Positions 11,258 through 24,609 of a DNA stretch of 34,310 nucleotides are shown one piece after another. The DNA is taken from positions 1 through 34,310 of the forward strand of contig CALMSP010000180.1 in assembly GCA_937872405.1 (NCBI GenBank). Direction: 5' to 3'. Both the position numbers and the translations under genes were made by a program. Position 1 is the first letter of the stretch; every line of letters starts with the position of its first letter. The stretch is from an uncultured Saprospiraceae bacterium (lineage in GTDB: Bacteria; Bacteroidota; Bacteroidia; Chitinophagales; Saprospiraceae). The notes beneath the pieces are model-generated. The model saw only the letters and a program-made list of their open reading frames with translations. It was not told where the DNA came from and did no database searches.

Positions 11258-11565
11258 TCAAGCCTCTTGCCCTGTATTGTCGGCGTCGGGTTTGTTGTGG
11301 CGCTGGAATACAATGATTGCAATCACCACCGGAATACCTATTAAGAGCATGTTTAAATTTCATACTTTGGTCTGCAAATGTTCATCTATGGAACCTCACT
11401 TTGCCTTTTTCTCGCTCCGTAGCGCTGCTATGCAGCTCAAAAAACGCTTCGTGAGAACCCAAATCTGATCATTTTCGACTTCAAAAACGAATTTTAAACA
11501 TACTCTAAGATGAGCGTCATGAAAAGCATAAGTGCATTTGCCTGAAACCAGTTGATCAGATACAT
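11258..11565 (-). pseudogene. Small membrane-protein gene interrupted by a MITE
   Basis: Removing the MITE (11345-11505) and one copy of its TAA duplication restores an open frame from ATG 11565 to TGA 11258. The restored protein has 47 residues: a MYLINWFQ start, one hydrophobic segment (about residues 10-32, containing LIGIPVVIAIIVF), and a polar tail QRHNKPDADNTGQEA. With the insertion the frame ends after LILEYV at a TAA inside the element. A full promoter (11590-11620) lies directly upstream, which supports this start and shows the gene was real. No family is recognised. An upstream in-frame ATG at 11643 lies before the promoter and is unlikely to be used. Confidence 0.6.
11345..11505. 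mobile_element. MITE, copy 1 (161 bp, IS5-like ends)
   Basis: The element has terminal inverted repeats GAGCATGTTTAAATTTC and, at the other end, GAGTATGTTTAAAATTC read inward: 17 bases, two mismatches. It is flanked by a direct TAA (11342-11344 and 11506-11508). It has no transposase. A TNA 3-bp duplication and GAG ends are typical of the IS5 family, IS1031 group, so the mobilising enzyme is probably such a transposase elsewhere in the genome. It is identical over all 161 bases to the copy at 13996-14156, in the same orientation. Confidence 0.88.
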
Positions 11566-13996: not shown

Positions 13997-14156
13997 AGCA
14001 TGTTTAAATTTCATACTTTGGTCTGCAAATGTTCATCTATGGAACCTCACTTTGCCTTTTTCTCGCTCCGTAGCGCTGCTATGCAGCTCAAAAAACGCTT
14101 CGTGAGAACCCAAATCTGATCATTTTCGACTTCAAAAACGAATTTTAAACATACTC
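13996..14156. mobile_element. MITE, copy 2 (161 bp, IS5-like ends)
   Basis: It is identical to 11345-11505 over all 161 bases and has the same orientation. It is flanked by a direct TTA duplication (13993-13995 and 14157-14159), again of the TNA type. The insertion point is between the second and third base of the hisS stop codon. The element also separates hisS from the truncated tex gene. Confidence 0.88.
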
Positions 14157-14267
14157 TTAGGCTAAAGCCATCACTAATGGAATAGCTTTTTAAAACGTTC
14201 GATTAGATGCTCCTAATTCGATGCTAAGGCATCGGTATAAAACGCCTTCATTAAAAGTTCTTAACTA

Positions 14268-14963
14268 ATGACCGAACGAATTACCCCACTCATTAGCGAC
14301 AAGCTGTCTATTGGCCAGTTGCAGGTGGCGGCCACCATCGAATTGCTGACAAGCGGTGCTACCATTCTCTTTATTTCGCGTTACCGCAAAGAGGCAACCG
14401 GTAGCCTCGACGAAACGCAAGTAGCTGCCATTGATGCCGAGATGAAGCGCTTGGATACCCTCATCAAACGCAAGGAAACCATTCTGAAAAGCATCGGCGA
14501 GCAGGAGAAACTTACCCCGGAGTTGGAAGCTAAAATCAATAACTGCTGGGACACTACCGCCCTCGAAGACCTTTATCTGCCCTATCGCCCCAAGCGCAAA
14601 ACCCGCGCCAGCATGGCCCGCAAACGGGGGCTGGAGCCTTTGGCTACGCTCATACTGGAACAACGCGAACGCAACCTTGAACTGCGCGCCGAGCTATTTC
14701 TCACCGACGATGTACCCGACGTAGAAGCGGCCTTAGCCGGCGCACGCGACATCATCGCCGAGCGAGGTGTTTCGCAGTTTCAAATTATAGATAATCGCCT
14801 GGTGTTTCGGGAGGGAGCGCAATTACAAATAGCTGGTTTACAATCTTTTCAGTACGGCACGATGGCACTACCGGAGGCGGCTGTTAATACGGCACAGGTG
14901 TTAGTACACAAAAATCGCTTGTATATTCGGAATCAGGTGGGCATCATCGTGCAGACATTTTAA
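14268..14963 (+). pseudogene. tex: tex truncated after 166 codons, fused to the end of a propeller gene
   Basis: Residues 1-166 are the N-terminal region of the transcription accessory protein Tex: GATILFISRYRKEATGSLDE (residues 30-49), LDTLIKRKETILKSIGEQ and LEDLYLPYRPKRKTRASMA are diagnostic. Complete Tex proteins have roughly 700-780 residues and continue through YqgF-like, HhH and S1 RNA-binding domains; none of these is present. At 14766 the frame runs without interruption into 65 residues nearly identical to the C-terminus of the protein at 1279-2115, ending at that gene's own stop. The chimera is most likely non-functional as Tex. An intact tex elsewhere in the genome is possible. Confidence 0.88.
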
Positions 14964-15054
14964 ATCATGCATTTTTTGCCATACCGCTTTCATTTTAAAA
15001 GACGGCACATTCAATTCTTTTTAATTCGATGCTTTATAGAGCTGTAAATCGAAC
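14766..15054 (+). repeat. Duplicated segment, copy 2 (joined to tex)
   Basis: The 289-bp counterpart of 1918-2209. It begins at the GGTGTTTCGCAG of the fusion junction and ends 91 bases after the stop codon; the AT-rich cassette begins immediately after. Identity to copy 1 is about 93 percent, so copy 1 is probably not the direct donor of a recent event. Confidence 0.9.
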
Positions 15055-15088
15055 CGTCAAAGAAACAACATTTGGAATAAAATGCAGT

Positions 15089-19207: not shown

Positions 19208-19588
19208 ATCAGCCAGGATGCCGACGGGTTCATTTTGTGTACTCTTTGTCTAACTTTCCCTTGTATTCTCTACGGCAGTAAAATTGGCAGTAAAATTGGC
19301 AGTAAAATTGGCAGTAAAATTGGCAGTAAAATTAAAAGATATTTTAGAAAGAGGCAAGATGTATTAAAAATTTAACATCGCAGTTTGATGGCCGTATCCT
19401 TTTTAAACTTTTATCTTCATAGCTCGGTCGTGCAAAAAGATGTATGATAATTGTGTAAAAAAACGGTTGTGTTTTGGAGTGTATGATTAATATTTTTTGC
19501 TAAAATGTTAAACCTATAAAGGAAATTTTTTTTTATGTAAAACCATAATACAATACACCTAAAAAATCAAGTGATCTTTATTTTTATT
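19208..19588. other. Intergenic region with tandem repeats
   Basis: Apart from the five 12-bp repeats at 19274-19333, this stretch is AT-rich with no recognised gene or strong terminator for the cyclase gene whose 3' end borders it. Confidence 0.5.
19274..19333. repeat. Five perfect tandem copies of a 12-bp unit
   Basis: The unit is GGCAGTAAAATT (AATTTTACTGCC on the other strand). All five copies are identical and adjacent. They lie 112 bases upstream of the start of the small HTH gene, which is read on the minus strand. Confidence 0.95.
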
Positions 19589-24467: not shown

Positions 24468-24512
24468 TTTTGCAAAAAAGGTATGTAATTTAAATCCGTT
24501 GTTTTACTTTTC

Positions 24513-24545
24513 AGATTTCGCAAATCTTAAAGATTTACGAAATCT
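24513..24545. repeat. REP-like palindrome after the glycosyltransferase gene
   Basis: Two 16-base arms (AGATTTCGCAAATCTT and its complement with one mismatch) flank a single base. Each arm is itself nearly palindromic. It can act as a cruciform or hairpin, and may stabilise or end the upstream transcript. Confidence 0.7.
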
Positions 24546-24609
24546 CATCCACTGTTTTGACGCATTACCAAATCAGAAAAACGTCACGTTCAATTAAAAA
24601 ATAGAAAAA

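Follow-up and report, generated by a model that had tools for sequence, protein, structure and literature searches.

A probable chimeric gene remnant in an uncultured Saprospiraceae bacterium, combining a xenologous tex fragment with the copied 3' end of a resident gene

An open reading frame that starts as a clear Tex protein and ends with the last codons of another gene raises the question of how the two came together and whether the product can still matter to the cell. The window analysed here is one whole contig (C180, 34,310 nucleotides) from the genome of an uncultured Saprospiraceae bacterium, the assembly of which comprises 3.7 Mb in 318 contigs with an estimated completeness of 87% and an estimated contamination of 2%. 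The frame lies at 14268-14963 on the forward strand, as do its parts and the resident source-like gene, and codes for 231 amino acids with Tex_N as the sole Pfam match (residues 4-76, E 3.2e-24 in a profile search). The solved Tex structures 3bzc and 2oce align with it from residue 16 on. Homology to tex at the DNA level covers 14263-14762 (E 2e-222), i.e. 5 bp upstream of the start and 165 codons counted from the ATG. The stretch 14765-15054 is in turn 93% identical to positions 1917-2209 (E 1e-121), with one 3-bp indel past the stop, and contains the last 66 codons, the stop and a 3' tail of about 90 bp of the gene starting at 1279. These E values put chance far out for both matches. Direct alignment to both sources places the in-frame junction within about 14763-14767, at codon 166 (CGA). 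The frame is a chimera of two sources, a composition seen directly in the alignments.

The initial annotation had described a tex gene cut after 166 codons that runs on in frame into a duplicated gene end; the in-frame fusion to a duplicated end stands, while the count has to be corrected to 165. The abrupt ends of the matches, the repeat of about 93% identity to 1918-2209 continuing past the stop, and the junction reading GAGCGAGGTGTTTCGCAG were all recovered as it gave them. It was also right that the RNA-binding domains HhH and S1 are lost, since Pfam finds Tex_N alone. Measured against the parts of a functional Tex, Tex_N is present, and almost the whole central region, the YqgF-like domain, HhH and S1 were not found in the frame, whereas an intact Tex of 708 amino acids in a sister genome has all of them.

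The source-like resident gene (1279-2115, with a TTG start as mechanically called) has orthologs in three genomes (G001, G017 and G006), which makes it a real family of secreted proteins. Its product is a predicted beta-propeller (AlphaFold2 pLDDT 84.5; best Foldseek matches to NHL propellers, E 6e-11), so that the label of propeller given at first sight was appropriate. The propeller part of the chimera differs from this gene by a dS of 0.21 and has it as its sole counterpart in the assembly. A search for further copies of the 290-bp segment, which had been proposed as a check, returned just two in the assembly, 1917-2209 and 14765-15054, and a dispersed repeat was therefore rejected as its source. 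No intrinsic terminator was detected in the shared tail, which had no significant fold (z of -1.05 and -0.23) and no terminator match. Downstream of the 1279 gene there is an intergenic repeat of about 110 bp (approximately 2271-2380) that recurs many times in the sister genome at about 80% identity.

This sister genome, uncultured Saprospiraceae bacterium SRR2107179_bin.64 (G001), is the only other genome of the genus that was compared. Its intact tex (contig C39, CALMSO010000039.1) is 94% identical in DNA to 14263-14762 (pS 0.163, dS 0.18), and residues 1-165 of the chimera are 95% identical to its Tex. Vertical orthologs compared between the two genomes reach only 66-80% DNA identity, with synonymous sites near saturation: pS was 0.63-0.79 for eight orthologs in the window (hisS, nitrilase-like, aroQ-like, pepP-like, hisIE, ArsR-like, the 3099 gene and the 1279 gene) and for the ortholog of the peptidase gene next to the sister tex (contig C317). 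Elsewhere in the 34-kb window all gene regions match the sister genome at about 80% or less, and short dispersed repeats alone exceed this value. The flanks of the sister tex match other contigs of the window genome (C317, C257, C58) at 69-78%, leaving tex alone as anomalous, and in the window genome no tex adjoins the ortholog of the gene immediately beside the sister tex. An identity of 94% and a dS of 0.18, where the synonymous sites of neighbouring orthologs are close to saturation, indicate that the tex piece is foreign, a xenolog by its sequence and not vertically inherited. It carries both marks of a horizontal fragment, an identity far above that of vertical orthologs and a genomic context unlike that in the sister genome. 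The homology has an abrupt left edge, 5 bp ahead of the ATG, and the intergenic stretch that separates it from a MITE-like element (14157-14262) gave no homolog and differs from the upstream region of the sister tex. Similarity limited to tex, the unlike flanks and the abrupt left edge suggest that tex entered alone or lost its context on both sides. The transfer may have gone from the sister lineage into the window genome. The earlier proposal of a native tex cut at 14766 does not agree with a xenologous piece whose homology starts abruptly at -5.

Profile searches found Tex_N once in the assembly. The search for an intact tex elsewhere, also proposed at the outset, yielded none in the 87%-complete assembly, and no other remainder of tex either, an absence for which incompleteness may account. 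The best matches to the missing part of Tex were four short ones of about 32-39% identity; three of them lay in a single frame of 581 amino acids and covered the S1 end of Tex, and the fourth (34%) came from a different frame. Among 275 good genomes of the family, 58 gave no Tex match, and losing or lacking tex therefore appears to be common in it. The fusion of Tex with a propeller end was found in none of 398 family genomes, nor in the other genome contigs and viral contigs searched, so the evolved fusion family that would have spoken against a break was not seen in relatives. The sister genome has no locus with both sources in order, its tex, hisS (C17) and 1279 ortholog (C46) being on separate contigs.

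Gene order in the window (1-34310) is almost fully scrambled with respect to the sister genome, and neighbours in the window lie on different contigs there. A MITE-like element of 160 bp is located at 13997-14156 and again at about 11341-11508, with ends GAGCATGTTTAAA and TTTAAACATACTC. Nearly all of the 23 copies checked have 3-bp target duplications, TTA or TAA, and the copy after hisS re-creates the stop codon of this gene. The window genome contains about 40 near-identical copies, and several more in the sister genome are 96-99% identical, which suggests that the element was recently active and spread between species. Another dispersed repeat, of about 80 bp (approximately 24492-24573), occurs in dozens of copies (82-96%) in the window genome and also several times in the sister genome, and at 19274-19333 the 12-mer GGCAGTAAAATT is present in five perfect tandem copies.

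The short homology GTTTCG, which had been put forward as the means of joining tex to a paralog, is absent from the junction position in all 33 tex genes compared (the sister genome, which reads GAGTGGGTCAATGAA, and 32 others). A joint with very short or no homology is taken as the default. A 12-bp direct repeat, TAATTCGATGCT, is found near both ends of the chimera (14214-14225 and 15022-15033) and may be due to chance. Among other vehicles, an integron cassette was considered given that homology starts just before the ATG, and was dropped after a core-site scan gave no match to RYYYAAC or GTTRRRY at either end. A phage origin was discarded, the viral contigs searched containing no relative of the frame, and so was capture by the MITE-like element: this element is complete, is flanked by a TTA target duplication of its own and stops some 106 bp short of the start of tex homology, so that it does not delimit the chimera.

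Both halves of the chimera have a low dN/dS (0.126 in the tex part and 0.145 in the propeller part) and the frame is open. Their dS values from the nearest relatives are similar (0.18 and 0.21), which is consistent with one event within a wide error. When a neutral chimera branch holding half of the divergence was simulated, so few replacements appeared in 6% of the cases, and in 3% when the absence of a stop was also required; with 20-30% of the divergence on the branch neutrality was not rejected. The low dN/dS together with the neutral expectation of about 3% therefore points either to a recent fusion of diverged, unsampled donors or to a constrained chimera. At the protein level, Pro34, invariant in the 36 aligned relatives, is Leu in the chimera, residue 119, mostly acidic in relatives, is Lys, and residues 18 and 143, mostly polar in relatives, are Leu. 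In the predicted model the helical Tex part is retained (pLDDT about 74-93), but the 66-residue tail has no confident structure (pLDDT about 37-46). The loss of Pro34 and a tail lacking a confident predicted fold suggest that Tex function is gone and that the product is inactive as Tex. A scan for sigma-70 types of promoter found no match upstream.

In our view the chimera is probably what is left of a tex obtained by horizontal transfer and attached to a diverged duplicate of a resident gene's 3' end, and this outcome of transfer and illegitimate joining most likely has no function. All or part of a tex gene would have been passed horizontally from the sister lineage, would have come to lie downstream of hisS, and would have been reduced to its first 165 codons. 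Illegitimate recombination would then have joined these codons to the diverged copy of the propeller gene end, which would have provided the in-frame tail of 66 codons and the stop. This order of events and the joining mechanism are what we infer, and the low dN/dS, the open frame and the 87% completeness of the genome were counted against such a remnant. The initial annotation had instead proposed that a local deletion fused a native tex to a 1279 paralog lying downstream, a mechanism with precedent, as fusions born of deletion have been described in bacteria (PMC12803068), and one that agrees with the common orientation, the in-frame join and an assembly devoid of other tex. It is very unlikely nonetheless: the dS of the tex piece is far from the near saturation of vertical orthologs, the left edge of homology at -5 is an extra breakpoint that a single deletion does not make, GTTTCG is at the site in none of the tex genes compared, and the second full paralog that it needs was not found elsewhere in the assembly. 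A deletion after the transfer may still have taken part.

That the chimera is a young functional gene under selection, with the Tex N-terminal helical domain and a new tail, is unlikely, in spite of the low dN/dS, the intact frame, the similar dS of both halves, as if one fusion had since diverged, and a joint chance of about 0.03 under neutrality if the divergence is split evenly. The predicted folding of the Tex part and breakpoints situated just before the ATG and within a frame are also in its favour. Against these weigh the loss of the invariant Pro34 and of the strongly conserved acidic residue, the tail without a confident predicted fold, the missing match in the sigma-70 promoter scan and the restriction of the fusion to this one genome among those searched, and the low dN/dS may predate the fusion. 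Its more specific version, in which purifying selection would maintain a new, expressed gene whose product might serve as a decoy for a Tex-binding partner, is highly improbable. An artefact of assembly or binning that joined sequence of two organisms is quite unlikely; the fragmentation, completeness and contamination of the assembly and the resemblance of the tex part to another MAG would fit it, but it requires three joins, near 14262, 14765 and 15054-15062, and at none of them is there a long overlap. Moreover, both parts are 6-7% away from the nearest relatives compared, so they are not copies from elsewhere in the assembly, and the other genes of the contig match the sister genome at just 66-80%. 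All in all, we read the remnant as donor pieces that had already diverged when they were recently joined and that are now decaying, and see a small chance of a new gene under selection.

If so, a fragment was exchanged between two species of a genus with near-saturated synonymous divergence in the rest of the genes compared, and captured in frame by a resident 3' end. Such chimeras mislead annotation, here by a Tex_N match that suggests a Tex protein that is absent, and they are raw material for new bacterial genes, even if this one by itself is probably an ordinary remnant. Compared with the transcription accessory protein Tex (3bzc/2oce, PF09371), residues 1-165 are clearly the N-terminal part, and the chimera differs in lacking YqgF, HhH and S1 entirely and the central region almost entirely, and in the replacement of the invariant Pro34. 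Fusion genes born from structural change, including rearrangement and deletion, have been described (PMC12803068), and the likeness lies in two gene pieces within one new open frame; here, in contrast, one piece is foreign by its sequence and the other arose as a duplicate, and the simple deletion of a resident stretch would not suffice. Failed horizontal transfer is a large source of pseudogenes (PMC522871), and these resemble the present case in the truncation of a recently transferred gene and in an assembly without a functional copy, while here the frame is undisrupted and receives an in-frame tail from a resident gene. The chimera is a new example of these described processes and not a new kind.
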